Shown here piece after piece: positions 8,291 to 41,494 of a DNA stretch of 64,000 nt (positions are counted from its first letter, which is position 1; each line of letters begins with the position of its first letter). The position numbers were made by a program, and so were the translations under genes. The notes below the pieces were generated by a model. It ran no database searches and was not told the DNA's origin. It saw only the letters and a list, made by a program, of their open reading frames with translations. The stretch covers positions 1,054,001 to 1,118,000 of the forward strand of contig NZ_CP011120.1 in the NCBI RefSeq assembly GCF_001628715.1, given 5' to 3'. This DNA comes from Acetobacter oryzifermentans (GTDB lineage: Bacteria > Pseudomonadota > Alphaproteobacteria > Acetobacterales > Acetobacteraceae).

Positions 8291-8333
8291 CATGTACAGC
8301 GTACGCAATTCTTTAAGAATCGCAGGGTAAAAC

Positions 8334-8362
8334 TTGACTCCCAGCGGGGGGAGGGTTAGGTA
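8334..8362 (+). promoter_or_regulatory. Candidate sigma-70 promoter of the str operon
   Basis: A TTGACT -35-like hexamer at 8334-8339 is followed at 17 bp by TAGGTA at 8357-8362 (a weak -10). It sits after the rpoC terminator and before the structured rpsL leader. Predicted from sequence only; the transcription start would be near 8370. Confidence 0.45.
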
Positions 8363-8433
8363 GCAGCCCTCAGCTCTGGATATCCCTGTGGATAGAAAGA
8401 GCAATTAGGTTTTCTGTGTGAGTCTAGCATGCG

Positions 8434-19548: not shown

Positions 19549-19726
19549 TAAAAAAACCTTTAAGGTTGTGCAGATTGCGTCCGGTAATGGACGTAAGCCT
19601 GGACAGCAGGCAACTTTGATCGGTCTGGGTCTGAACAAGATTGGCCGTGAACGCGTTCTGGAAGATACTCCGTCTGTCCGGGGTATGGTACGCAAAGTGG
19701 CCCACCTGGTGAAGGTGGAGGATTGA
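19541..19726 (+). CDS. rpmD: 50S ribosomal protein L30
   Basis: Small large-subunit protein of 61 residues from the ATG at 19541. It starts inside the last codons of rpsE, a usual translational-coupling arrangement. [19 protein letters not shown] and [19 protein letters not shown] are typical. rplO follows one base after the stop. Confidence 0.97.
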
Positions 19727-37823: not shown

Positions 37824-39218
37824 TTAACGTTTGTTTCCGCTCATGGAGGCCCCGGCAGAAGGTGCAAGGCTTGCCGCAAATGGCACAGCCAGAAGAGATA
37901 CAGCCCCAGTTGCCAGAAAACCTGCGGAAAAATCGCCCAAAGTGGGTGTTGTGTGGCCATATATTTGCCCCAGCACGGTAAGCGTGCCCGCAGCAATACA
38001 TATGCCAGCAGAAAGCATGATCTGCTGCATGGTGGAATACAGGCTGGTTGCAGCGCTCATGTTACTTGCTGGCACATCAGCATAGGCAATGGTGTTGTAA
38101 GCGGAAAACTGGATAGCTTGCGCAGCTCCGGCACATGCTAAAATAAGCGAAAAAAGCCACAAGGCATGCGGTAGCCGAAAGCTCGCTACCAGTGTAAAAA
38201 CGACAGCAGCGGAAATGCCATTGAACATCAGCACCTTCCGAAAGCCCCAGCGCCGCAAAATGGCGGGTACAAAGGGCCGCGTTATTAACGCCCCAATGGG
38301 GGCTGTAAATGTGACCAGCCCGCTTTGGGCAGCGTTGAGCCCCATGCCGATTTGCAGAAAGGATGGCATGAGAAAGGGCAGCGAGCCCACTGCCACGCGT
38401 GAGGCCGCGCCCGCTAAAACAGAAATCCGAAATGTGGGAATGCGCATAAGCCGGAAATCTAGCAATGGCGCGGGAATGCGGAAGGCATGAATGCAGTAAA
38501 GGGCCATCAGAAGGCTGCCTGCGCCCAGCATAAGCACGCGCAAAGTTATTGAACCTTCTGCGTGGCTGAACAGTTCTGCAAAAACAGAAAGCAGCGCCAG
38601 CCCACCCCCGGCCAGCACCATGCCCTTTAAATCAAACGGCGCAGGTGAGGGCTCGCGAATTTGTGGAATAAAGCGCCATGTAAGCCCTAGCCCGACCAGC
38701 CCGATAGGAATGTTGAGGTAAAAATTCCACCGCCATGAAAACCATGTGGTGATAAATCCACCAACCACCGGGCCAAGCAAAGGGCCAAGCGTTGCGGGCA
38801 ACATCATCCACGTCATGGTGCGCACAAGCTGATCACGCGGTGTGCTGCGGATAATCACAAGCCGCCCTATGGGCACCATAAGGGCGCCGCCAATACCTTG
38901 CAGCGTACGCATGCAGGCCAGAAAGGGAAGGGAGTTTGCTTGAGCGCAAAACAGAGAGCTGGTGACAAAAATGCAAATGGCCACCATCAGCACAGACCGG
39001 CTGCCCAGCCGGTCTGCCAACGCACCAGAAGCCGGTATGAAAATAGCTAACCCAATAATATAGGATGTGAGTGCAACAGAGGTTGCAACTGTATCAACGT
39101 GTAAACTGTTAGCAATAGAAGGCAGAGCTGTTGCCAGAATGGTGCCATCAAGCTGTTCCATAAACATCATGGAGGCAACGATCAGGGCGGTGAACTGCGC
39201 TTTGGTCGGGCGTGGCAT
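37824..39218 (-). CDS. MFS drug transporter, DHA2 family, MdtD-like
   Basis: Drug:H+ antiporter, 464 residues with 13-14 predicted spans. It has the motif-C region GPLLGPVVGGFITT, motif A LADRLGSRSVLM, and RTLQGIGGALMVPIGRL, very close to E. coli MdtD, which is encoded in the mdtABCD operon. Here it lies upstream of mdtA on the same strand with a 173-base gap, so it may be co-regulated but is probably not in the same primary transcript. No BaeSR-like two-component system is next to it. Confidence 0.9.
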   Translation of the reverse strand: MPRPTKAQFTALIVASMMFMEQLDGTILATALPSIANSLHVDTVATSVALTSYIIGLAIFIPASGALADRLGSRSVLMVAICIFVTSSLFCAQANSLPFLACMRTLQGIGGALMVPIGRLVIIRSTPRDQLVRTMTWMMLPATLGPLLGPVVGGFITTWFSWRWNFYLNIPIGLVGLGLTWRFIPQIREPSPAPFDLKGMVLAGGGLALLSVFAELFSHAEGSITLRVLMLGAGSLLMALYCIHAFRIPAPLLDFRLMRIPTFRISVLAGAASRVAVGSLPFLMPSFLQIGMGLNAAQSGLVTFTAPIGALITRPFVPAILRRWGFRKVLMFNGISAAVVFTLVASFRLPHALWLFSLILACAGAAQAIQFSAYNTIAYADVPASNMSAATSLYSTMQQIMLSAGICIAAGTLTVLGQIYGHTTPTLGDFSAGFLATGAVSLLAVPFAASLAPSAGASMSGNKR

Positions 39219-39330
39219 GCCTAGTCAGAAACGTGTTTTTGCGGTCTGATGCAACCTATGATCCTGCAAGCACTGTTTTGTTACGGCAAGCAGGCGGGTA
39301 GGATTGCACTCAAAGTTTAAGGAAAAAGTC

Positions 39331-39636
39331 ATGGCTGAAGATAAAATCAAGAATGTTGAAAGCAAGGTTGAAGGCGCAGCAACAGATGCCAAAGGCCATG
39401 TTAAAGATGCCATCGGCGGTTTGACAGGTAATATTGGCATGCAGGCCGAAGGTAAGTTCGATCAGTTTGCTGGCCACATGCAGCAGGATTTTGCAGATCT
39501 GTACGAAGAAGGTGAAGGCGTGCTGGAAAAGGCAGCAACCTTTGTGCGGGATAAGCCCCTGCTTTCATTGGGTATTGTATCCGCTATTGGCCTTGTTCTG
39601 GGCTGGCTGATCTTCCCCCGTCGCAAGCGTTCTTGA
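39331..39636 (+). CDS. CsbD-like stress protein with C-terminal membrane anchor
   Basis: 101 residues from the ATG at 39331, with AAGGA seven bases upstream. The N-terminal half (KIKNVESKVEGAATDAKGHVKDAIGGLTGN) is CsbD-like; key repeats are VKDAIGGLTGN and QAEGKFDQ. The C-terminal half adds one hydrophobic helix preceded by VRDKPLLSL and ended by RRKRS, as in DUF883 proteins. CsbD proteins are general-stress proteins; the membrane-anchored form is common in proteobacteria. Divergent from the MFS gene (112-base gap with nothing else recognisable). Confidence 0.85.
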   Translation: MAEDKIKNVESKVEGAATDAKGHVKDAIGGLTGNIGMQAEGKFDQFAGHMQQDFADLYEEGEGVLEKAATFVRDKPLLSLGIVSAIGLVLGWLIFPRRKRS

Positions 39637-39652
39637 AAAATTAGTTTACCGG

Positions 39653-39735
39653 GACTCTTGCGCTCCTAGGTAAAAAAATGCTTCTCCTTCCCTGCGGAGT
39701 CGCAGTTGATGCGACTCGGTTAATTTAGCCGAGTC
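39653..39735 (+). promoter_or_regulatory. Cluster of four GANTC sites upstream of rnhB-ccrM
   Basis: GANTC occurs at 39653-39657 (GACTC), 39697-39701 (GAGTC), 39713-39717 (GACTC) and 39731-39735 (GAGTC). GANTC is the target of CcrM methyltransferases, and the predicted ccrM lies two genes downstream. In Caulobacter, CcrM and the regulator GcrA act through methylated GANTC in promoters. Chance expectation for any 83-bp stretch is about 0.3 sites. The exact promoter could not be placed. Confidence 0.65.
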
Positions 39736-39760
39736 GCATCAAATGGATGGAAAGAGAAGC
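39680..39760 (+). repeat. Nested inverted repeats with GANTC arms before rnhB
   Basis: Inner palindrome: TTGATGCGACTCGG (39706-39719) and CCGAGTCGCATCAA (39729-39742), a perfect 14 bp, continued by partial pairing of the 9-base centre. An extra copy GAGTCGCA (39697-39704) can pair with TGCGACTC (39710-39717) instead, so two hairpins exclude each other. Outer arms GCTTCTCCTTCC (39680-39691) and GGAAAGAGAAGC (39749-39760) pair in 11 of 12 positions and enclose the whole block. No T run follows, so this is not a terminator. Confidence 0.75.
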
Positions 39761-39761
39761 A

Positions 39762-40394
39762 ATGCCGGACTTTACGCGGGAACAGCAGCTGGGTGGCCGA
39801 GTGGCCGGGGTGGATGAAGTGGGCCGTGGTCCGCTGGCAGGCCCCGTGGTTGCTGCCGCCGTGGTGTTTGGGGCTGGTGTACCTGCTGATCTTGCCGCCG
39901 TTATTGATGATTCCAAAAAATTAAAACCAGCTGTGCGCGAAGCCATAGCGGAACGCCTGCCGCAAGTGCCGGGTATTGAAATCGGCATTGGGGCAGCTTC
40001 CACTGCGGAAATCGATAAGCTGAACATTCACCATGCAGCCCATCTGGCCATGCAAAGGGCGGTAGGCCGCCTGCCGCGCCTGCCAGACCACGTGCTGGTG
40101 GATGGCAACAAGCTGCCGGATTTTGGCTGCGCTGCACAGGCTATTGTGGGCGGAGACAGGGTAAGCCTGTCTATTGCTGCGGCATCTATTGTGGCCAAAG
40201 TGGTGCGAGACCGCGCTATGGCTCGGCTGGATGCGCGCTGGCCTGATTACGGCTGGGAGAAAAACGCGGGCTACGGCACGGCTGTTCATCGCAAGGCGCT
40301 GATCAGCGTGGGCATTACACCGCACCATAGAAAGACGTTCGGCACAGTGCGCCGGCAGCTAGAAGAACATTATTCGGCGGAGAAGCAGGTATGA
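39762..40394 (+). CDS. rnhB: Ribonuclease HII
   Basis: Removes ribonucleotides and RNA primers from DNA-RNA hybrids. 210 residues from the ATG at 39762; ATG at 39747 would add five residues and place the start inside the purine-rich Shine-Dalgarno stretch GGAAAGAG, so 39762 is preferred. [16 protein letters not shown] holds catalytic D18 and E19; LVDGN and [17 protein letters not shown] complete the DEDD site. Its ribosome-binding region lies in the outer arm of the nested inverted repeat. The end overlaps ccrM by 4 bases. Confidence 0.96.
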
Positions 40395-41494
40395 GCGGCG
40401 CAAAATCAGCATCCATGGAACTCCCTATTGATCAGATCCTCCGTGGTGAATGCGTGGAAACCATGCGTTCCCTGCCTTCTCGTTCTGTGGATTGTGTGTT
40501 TGCAGATCCGCCATACAACCTCCAGTTGCGTGGAGAACTGCGCCGCCCAGATGATACGCTGGTGGATGGCGTGGATGATGACTGGGACAAATTCTCTGAT
40601 CTGGAAGAATATGACCGTTTCACCCGTGCATGGTTGGCAGAGGCCCGCCGTGTGCTGCATAAGGATGGCACAATTTGGGTGATTGGCTCCTATCATAACA
40701 TCTATCGCATTGGCGCCATTTTGCAGGATCTGGGCTTCTGGATTCTCAATGACATTGTGTGGCGTAAATCCAACCCCATGCCCAATTTCCGTGGTCGGCG
40801 TTTTACCAATGCACATGAAACCCTTATCTGGGCCGCACGTGGGCAGGATAGCCGGTACCGTTTTAACTACCAGGCCATGAAGGCGCTGAATGATGATGTG
40901 CAGATGCGCTCAGACTGGTATCTGCCCCTGTGCACAGGCAATGAGCGCCTGCGGAATGAACACGGGTTGAAGCTACATCCGACCCAAAAACCAGAAAGCC
41001 TGCTGCATCGCGTGCTGCTGGCTTCCACCACGGTAAATGATGTTATTCTAGACCCATTCTCCGGCACAGGCACCACGGCTGCTATGGCGCGCCGTTTGCG
41101 GCGGCATTTTATCGGTATTGAACGCCACCCGGATTATGTAGAAGCTGCCATGGCGCGTGTGGCCGCTGAAACGCCGCTGGAAGCCGATGCCGTGCAGACC
41201 ACGCAGGATAAGCGTGAAGCCCCGCGTATTCCTTTCGGCTCATTGGTGGAGCAAGGGGTTATTGCTGCTGGTACGGTAGTGTGTGACAAAAAACGCCGTG
41301 TACATGCGACTGTTTCGCCTGATGGCACGTTGGTAAATGGCACCAAGCGCGGTTCTATCCACAAGTTGGGTGCGCAGCTTACAAATGCTCCTTCCTGCAA
41401 TGGCTGGACATTCTGGTATTTTGAACGGGCAGGGGAATTGTTGCAGCTTGATGTGCTGCGGCAGGAAACACTGCATAAAACAGCGCAGGCATAA
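40391..41494 (+). CDS. ccrM: Cell-cycle DNA adenine methyltransferase CcrM (GANTC)
   Basis: N6-adenine methyltransferase expected to modify GANTC, as in Caulobacter and other alphaproteobacteria. 367 residues, beta-class order: catalytic DPPYN at 39-43 first, then a target-recognition segment, then the AdoMet motif [15 protein letters not shown]. The start of the catalytic domain, [19 protein letters not shown], is characteristic. The C-terminal about 90 residues (from [14 protein letters not shown]) form the extra RAMA-like domain typical of CcrM and absent from Dam. Co-transcribed with rnhB; expression presumably cell-cycle controlled. Confidence 0.96.

Follow-up and report, generated by a model that had tools for sequence, protein, structure and literature searches.

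The window analysed here is a stretch of 64,000 nucleotides from Acetobacter oryzifermentans. It contains a gene for ribonuclease HII (rnhB, 39762..40394, plus strand; Pfam RNase_HII E 2e-42; NCBIfam NF000595 227.4 bits against a cut-off of 167), which overlaps by 4 bp with a ccrM homologue on the same strand (40391..41494). The start of rnhB was set at 39762 according to a conserved ATGCC start; the list of open reading frames has 39747. The CcrM homologue comprises the Pfam domains N6_N4_Mtase and RAMA, scores 627.9 bits with NCBIfam NF050803 (E 3.9e-189), which is under the model cut-off of 830, and is 99% identical to the CcrM of locus L003. On the other side lies a gene for a small CsbD/DUF883_C protein (39331..39636, plus strand; Pfam CsbD E 4e-15, DUF883_C E 1.5e-6), which also adjoins the GANTC array in those Acetobacter loci whose sequences were inspected. 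A first-pass annotation of this DNA had described a cluster of GANTC sites directly upstream of rnhB and a predicted GANTC methyltransferase gene, and the two downstream genes are indeed rnhB and the CcrM homologue. The control region of rnhB-ccrM is single-copy.

The four GANTC sites reported within 83 bp are all present, with starts at 39653, 39697, 39713 and 39731. Site 1 (GACTC, 39653..39657) abuts a CTTGCGC element; among the 48 genus loci (L001-L048), 45 have a GANTC immediately 5' of TTGC. Site 2 (GAGTC, 39697..39701) lies in the 5' arm of a first hairpin, and its position is occupied by GANTC in all 43 anchored Acetobacter loci, as GAGTC in 37 and as GAATC in six. Site 3 (GACTC, 39713..39717) reads CGAGTCG on the reverse strand, as does site 4 (GAGTC, 39731..39735) on the forward strand. 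Three of the sites are located inside copies of the 8-mer GAGTCGCA (39697-39704 forward, 39710-39717 inverted, 39731-39738 forward), as had been described. All three copies found in the window are here, with an average of 1.65 in window shuffles, and the whole 3.1-Mb genome contains ten copies, three of them at this locus. The copy number alone is ordinary; the grouping of the copies is unusual. The window is poor in GANTC (72 observed, 163 in shuffles), and random placement of 72 sites gives P = 0.0066 for at least four of them in some 83-bp stretch. A second, looser group was seen at 8317, 8336 and 8420 (stretch 8317-8424) between open reading frames resembling RNA polymerase beta' (to 8235) and ribosomal protein S12 (from 8574), both identities being judged by eye.

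The cluster is conserved in relatives. An rnhB gene was found in 186 of 187 loci (the remaining locus, L077, is the gcrA locus), and 127 of the upstream regions are distinct. These contain on average 4.31 GANTC per 150 bp, where the rate in the coding DNA further downstream would predict 0.22; most of them hold four to seven sites and only eight hold none or one. Of 24 pentamers built in the same way, GANTC is the most frequent in these regions (548 vs 137). The cluster is not due to chance, and the set is weighted to close relatives because the loci of the best matches were taken. Among 60 further stretches from the family, 46 have an rnhB, with no GANTC in 24, one in 11 and two to four in 11 (mean 0.89, expected 0.43).

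The methyltransferase itself is more widely distributed. A CcrM match is found in all 49 genus genomes, though G035, which is 68% complete, gives a weak match only (E 1.2e-8). Of 150 genomes from the family, 142 have a match at E <= 1e-80, and of 115 genomes from the class 86 have one at E <= 1e-60. The class-level set comprises 28 new loci, 27 of them with an rnhB match. When GANTC was counted in the 200 bp 5' of rnhB, none of these 27 loci had at least two sites (mean 0.19, expected 0.75), a count beyond which Caulobacter-type leader sites could lie in other orders, inside rnhB just 5' of ccrM. The class-level locus that has no rnhB match, whose contig begins about 340 bp before ccrM, carries four GANTC before ccrM. 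By these counts the rnhB-ccrM pair is older than the array, and the array is a mark of the acetic acid bacteria.

The arrangement of the sites varies between clades. Most Acetobacter loci have a site at GACTC-CTTGCG and then, 3' of a block with the pattern TGNTTYTC, three sites spaced by 16 and 18 bp. In some clades (e.g. L006, L020, L028, L031) a GATTC lies within the TGNTTYTC block, and others (L032, L037-L040, L044) have GAATC and additional GATTC sites. Komagataeibacter, Novacetimonas and Gluconacetobacter contain a pair of sites upstream of CTTGC together with a GAATC...GATTC pair, or a relic of it, in the leader. In Gluconobacter the series is GAGTC-GATTC-GATTC with spacings of 10 and 11 bp, and similar groups occur in Asaia and others. 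Four members of the genus group (L035, L043, L045, L046) have no GANTC or two before rnhB, though CcrM and GcrA are present, and these represent natural controls for the array. The genomes of L045 and L046 are 1.5 and 1.7 Mb in size. Between the upstream gene and the array of L039, L037, L038, L040 and L044, reading by eye showed a terminator-like stem and T run, with GACTCgtgaaGAGTC behind them.

Methylated GANTC recruits GcrA, which is reported to be dimeric and to prefer the methylated site (PMC3667746). A GcrA protein is encoded in the same genome (PF07750 E 1.3e-30, above cut-off) and in 48 of the 49 genus genomes (all but the incomplete G035). For Caulobacter the extended motif YGAKTCK was proposed for GcrA, and Brevundimonas is reported to be without such a preference (PMC7987155). 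This motif is matched by 306 of 548 array sites and by 114 of 590 coding sites, numbers that come from related sequences and are not independent. In the window it is present at two of the four sites, namely at sites 3 and 4, which face each other. The binding box of CtrA is TTAA-N7-TTAA. A box of that type is absent from the region, and matches with at most one mismatch are found in the window only at 19549 and 56852. Across the whole window such matches are depleted (2, compared to 13.7 in shuffles). Cluster D Rhodospirillales are described as lacking parts of the CckA-ChpT-CtrA pathway (PMC2877005).

Two elements could belong to a promoter. CTTGCGC (39657..39663, plus strand) is a candidate -35 element, and TGCTTCTC (39679..39686, plus strand), the TGNTTYTC block of the window, is a candidate extended -10 element that could in addition pair with the end of the rnhB Shine-Dalgarno region. 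CTTGC stands 15 or 16 bases 5' of the block in 81 of 81 loci; the regular expression TGNTTYTC was written to fit the block as seen. The constant spacing suits a promoter. A scan for consensus sigma-70 promoters found none; promoters in G. oxydans are reported as lax (ttGnnn and nAtnnn, PMC5756330), and therefore sequence alone cannot settle where the RNA starts. CTTGCGC is enclosed by an imperfect inverted repeat, hairpin A (39645..39674; TTTACC...GGTAAA around GACTCTTGCGC). Its own arms pair with -9.3 kcal/mol and swapped arms with -6.0 kcal/mol (0/1000 permutations at each thinning). Hairpin A is not strong in the window (z -1.4) and is missing or weak in L030, L033, L034, L041, L042 and most loci of other genera; in L006, L007, L028, L029 and L031, which carry a second CTTGC, and in their kin its z-scores are mis-anchored. 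If CTTGCGC is the -35 element, hairpin A would not be transcribed from that promoter.

Covariation points to structure in the second of two hairpins noted earlier, here called H2 (39706..39742, plus strand), which includes GANTC sites 3 and 4. It has the perfect 14-bp stem attributed to it (39706-39719 with 39729-39742), and the RNA fold of 39705-39742 reaches -27.4 kcal/mol (z -9.8). Its evolution was followed on a quick maximum likelihood tree of 83 loci from four genera, built from rnhB-ccrM DNA with less than half of the columns filled in 17 loci. H2 was anchored by GA[AC]TC and GA[GT]TC at a distance of 18-20 bases, which 64 of the 83 loci passed; the 19 unanchored loci are L035, L043, L045 and L046 and 15 that were looked at separately. 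Because the anchor demands these pentamers, a test of the N base within GANTC is biased and is not evidence. In the outer pairs, which lie outside GANTC, 358 of 448 cells are paired (281 simulated; 0/400 simulations as high). Eight branches of the tree are compensatory, compared to 0.9 in tree-simulated columns (0/400 reach that number), and 30 branches break pairing. The inner pairs are paired in 179 of 192 cells (141 simulated; 0/400) with two compensatory branches (6/400 simulations as high) and seven breaking ones. When the outer pairs are shifted by -2, -1, 1 or 2 positions, only one compensatory branch or none is left.

Permutation of the arms gives the same picture. The own arms of the outer part are better than swapped ones (0-2/2000 permutations down to 18-20 representatives), with a weaker signal at 14-15 well-separated representatives (2-45/2000), and those of the inner part at all thinnings (0-5/2000). 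For Acetobacter alone the values are 0-4/2000 outer and 0-12/2000 inner. RNAalifold predicts H2 as the sole structure of the A1 alignment (54 sequences), in which its covariation score is 0.339 (0.159 shuffled) and 88.3% of the cells are paired (76.7 shuffled). According to these comparisons H2 covaries across Acetobacter, Komagataeibacter and relatives, as the alignment check proposed with the first-pass annotation had asked for.

The departures from Watson-Crick pairing in H2 are 18 of the G.U type and five of the A.C type (p 0.011), in addition to 30 other mismatches. The excess of G.U over A.C fits RNA on the sense strand. Of the 15 loci in which the 3' arm has lost GANTC, 14 still have the stem: it comprises 10 or 11 pairs with a mismatch in ten Gluconacetobacter loci and is retained via G.U in L163 and in three of four Novacetimonas loci, and only L050 folds poorly. 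Hairpin and methylation site are therefore separable. These patterns lend good support to H2 as an RNA structure, and the DNA cruciform that had been considered for the locus is not needed to account for them.

R1, the hairpin model, was run on the 49 genus genomes and at E <= 0.1 finds the rnhB leader, or the strand opposite to it, in 44 of them, most of these leaders having belonged to its training set; one weak match lies off the locus (G020:C1, E 0.05). In a search of 67 sources it matches nine loci outside the training set, from Novacetimonas and Gluconacetobacter and including L163; L043 is hit at E 0.29, and L035, L045 and L046 give no match. None of 54 loci from other genera is matched at E <= 1, though most of those inspected carry GANTC arrays, and hence the DNA and RNA layers are separate. 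No Rfam family exceeds its cut-off in 39200-39900, the best match being on the minus strand (E 0.13, 21.8 of 52 bits).

H2 is enclosed by a second predicted helix, P1, which goes beyond what had been noted before. Its 5' strand is an anti-Shine-Dalgarno pyrimidine tract (39679..39691, plus strand), complementary to the Shine-Dalgarno region GGAAAGAGAAGCA (39749..39761, plus strand), which forms the 3' strand just 5' of the start codon at 39762. P1 closes the fold that is predicted for 39678-39770 (-50.2 kcal/mol, z -8.9). Over 81 loci (51-53 representatives) the own pairing of P1 is about -17.6 kcal/mol and the swapped one -14.3 kcal/mol, with 0/1000 permutations as good at each thinning from 0.1 to 0.4; a control segment of rnhB coding sequence exhibits no coevolution in this test. 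As an example, CTCTTTCCAC goes with GTGGAAAGAG in L020 and CTCTTTCTAC with GTAGAAAGAG in L021. The signal comes mostly from the 11 bases 3' of the TGNTTYTC block (0 to 57/1000 over all thinnings). The block itself coevolves feebly with the Shine-Dalgarno region (0-6/1000 at the lightest and 88-270/1000 at the strongest thinning), and P1 is weak in L006, L007, L028, L029 and L012 (-10.3 to -14 kcal/mol). Coevolution of the tract with the rnhB Shine-Dalgarno region is fairly well supported by these comparisons.

Compared with shuffles, the whole leader folds strongly in Acetobacter (mean z -5.1, 44/47 under -2), Komagataeibacter (-5.6, 19/19) and Novacetimonas (-4.6, 4/4), less so in Gluconacetobacter (-2.3, 7/13) and hardly in the other 44 loci (-0.8, ten under -2). 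How far the ribosome-binding site would be hidden depends on the 5' end. In an RNA that includes the block, the Shine-Dalgarno region is predicted to be unpaired with a mean of 0.20 in 45 Acetobacter loci and 0.21 in 36 others. The values rise to 0.37 and 0.30 for an RNA from just after the block and to 0.63 and 0.62 for one from nine bases later. For the window they are 0.21, 0.67 and 0.82. If its RNA starts just after TGNTTYTC, the Shine-Dalgarno region would be mostly open according to the model, and this counts against P1.

Hairpin 1 (39697-39717) folds to -12.5 kcal/mol (z -5.3) and shares its middle arm with H2. The first-pass annotation had proposed that the two are mutually exclusive and act as a switch. 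That interpretation holds in part: the cluster is conserved and the arms of H2 covary, and both hairpins can form in the window, but as a conserved feature the switch was rejected. The test covered all 64 loci, including genera that have no site 2 there, and then Acetobacter alone. The covariation score of hairpin 1 is equal to that of shuffles (0.120 vs 0.119). Its inner cells are paired in 146 of 256 cases (134 simulated; 64/200 as high) with zero compensatory branches, its outer cells in 95 of 192 (71 simulated; 18/200 as high). The own arms of the inner flank are no better than swapped ones, neither over all genera nor in Acetobacter alone. In Acetobacter the outer flanks give a faint signal at light thinning (18-44/2000) that fades at stronger thinning (203-419/2000). 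Of the 43 anchored Acetobacter loci 37 have matching GANTC arms, and such constant arms are no evidence for pairing; in the other six the first arm is GAATC, for which full pairing with GACTC is impossible. A species-level switch may exist in the window, where the model lets hairpin 1 form.

Taken together, the stretch upstream of rnhB-ccrM is best read as the promoter and 5' leader of an operon, in which a promoter with a GANTC array feeds a structured leader able to hide the ribosome-binding site. We hold this reading of two separable layers, taken as a whole, with slightly better than even confidence. The branches on which H2 loses pairs, the four loci that retain GcrA and CcrM with hardly any array, and the missing YGAKTCK preference in Brevundimonas speak against it. 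The first layer would be DNA. The array and its conservation are firm observations, and its sites are enriched in the GcrA-type extended motif; the array would span the promoter and the transcription start, and methylation by CcrM, read by GcrA, would feed back on CcrM synthesis, both the effect of methylation and its direction being our assumption. A role of the array in a CcrM/GcrA feedback is probable. The second layer would be RNA. In the leaders of Acetobacter, Komagataeibacter, Novacetimonas and Gluconacetobacter H2 would be enclosed by P1, and the pairing of the pyrimidine tract with the Shine-Dalgarno region would throttle translation of rnhB and the overlapping ccrM. The throttle would be lifted if the leader opens or if transcription starts a few bases further downstream. 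The comparisons show coevolution of both helices; presence of the tract in the RNA and control of translation by P1 are our inference. In the window, sites 3 and 4 would be part of both layers.

An ordinary GANTC-methylated promoter as in Caulobacter, with H2 merely protecting the 5' end of the mRNA, is a simpler and in our opinion unlikely alternative. GANTC effects on ccrM are described for that organism (PMC3973325, PMC2217572), and a stem as stable as H2 close to the presumed 5' end would fit; however, coevolution of the pyrimidine tract with the Shine-Dalgarno region is left unexplained. It is also quite improbable that a dimeric protein sensitive to methylation uses sites 3 and 4 as a palindromic operator in the DNA, with the covariation a by-product of symmetry selection or of template switching between the arms. 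Two facing YGAKTCK matches and a dimeric protein such as GcrA that prefers methylated GANTC (PMC3667746) would suit an operator, and hairpin A coevolves too, though a transcript from the proposed promoter would not include it. The predominance of G.U-type departures in H2 and the survival of the stem after loss of the 3' GANTC, partly via G.U, nevertheless argue against a DNA dyad, and freely changing flanks would not be read by a protein. An attenuator, that is the proposed switch at the RNA level with hairpin 1 as terminator-like stem and H2 as antiterminator or the reverse, is very improbable: the arms overlap and a scan marks hairpin 1 followed by GGTTAATTTA as terminator-like (three such in the region, 0.7 expected), but the T run is weak and interrupted and, of the two alternative stems, hairpin 1 neither covaries nor can pair fully in the six Acetobacter loci with GAATC.

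Returning to the promoter with a structured leader, GANTC marks might move the start of transcription slightly, by a few bases, and so decide whether the mRNA has the anti-Shine-Dalgarno tract at its 5' end. We offer this coupling as a speculation that is improbable at present. If it were true, a closed leader would mean little CcrM and an open leader much CcrM, and the efficiency with which ccrM is translated would reflect how its control region is methylated.

The control of ccrM has been described from Caulobacter crescentus, where CtrA and GANTC sites act: methylation in the control region most probably affects transcription of ccrM itself (PMC3973325), and CtrA is described as activating ccrM when the chromosome is hemimethylated (PMC2217572). 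The locus studied here likewise has GANTC in the promoter and leader. In contrast to Caulobacter, the array precedes rnhB and not ccrM directly, a CtrA-type box is lacking, and the leader is structured with a potentially hidden Shine-Dalgarno region, a feature unmentioned in the portions of the Caulobacter accounts at hand. It resembles GcrA/CcrM-dependent sigma-70 promoters in having GANTC near the candidate -35 and -10 elements, enriched YGAKTCK and a GcrA, and differs from them by the four to seven sites of most counted regions. Leaders that sequester the Shine-Dalgarno region (riboswitches, RNA thermometers, autogenous operators) share with it the anti-Shine-Dalgarno strand, the enclosed stem-loop and the covariation, so that a covarying helix (H2) and predicted pairing with the Shine-Dalgarno region (P1) would place it among structured cis-regulatory leaders; here, unlike in those, the methylation sites are embedded in the stem and no Rfam family reaches its cut-off. 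Our literature search brought up no account of the ccrM leader in acetic acid bacteria; we make no wider claim of absence.

The acetic acid bacteria may thus represent a candidate for another solution to the control of ccrM, with a GANTC array and a structured leader 5' of the methyltransferase gene. The locus adds a candidate to the leader RNAs that have no Rfam match, and with it laboratory strains would allow direct tests of whether a DNA methyltransferase is subject to methylation feedback and to control at the RNA level. A conserved array, an RNA hairpin and a helix over the ribosome-binding site hint that in these bacteria the supply of CcrM could be controlled via both DNA methylation and RNA folding.
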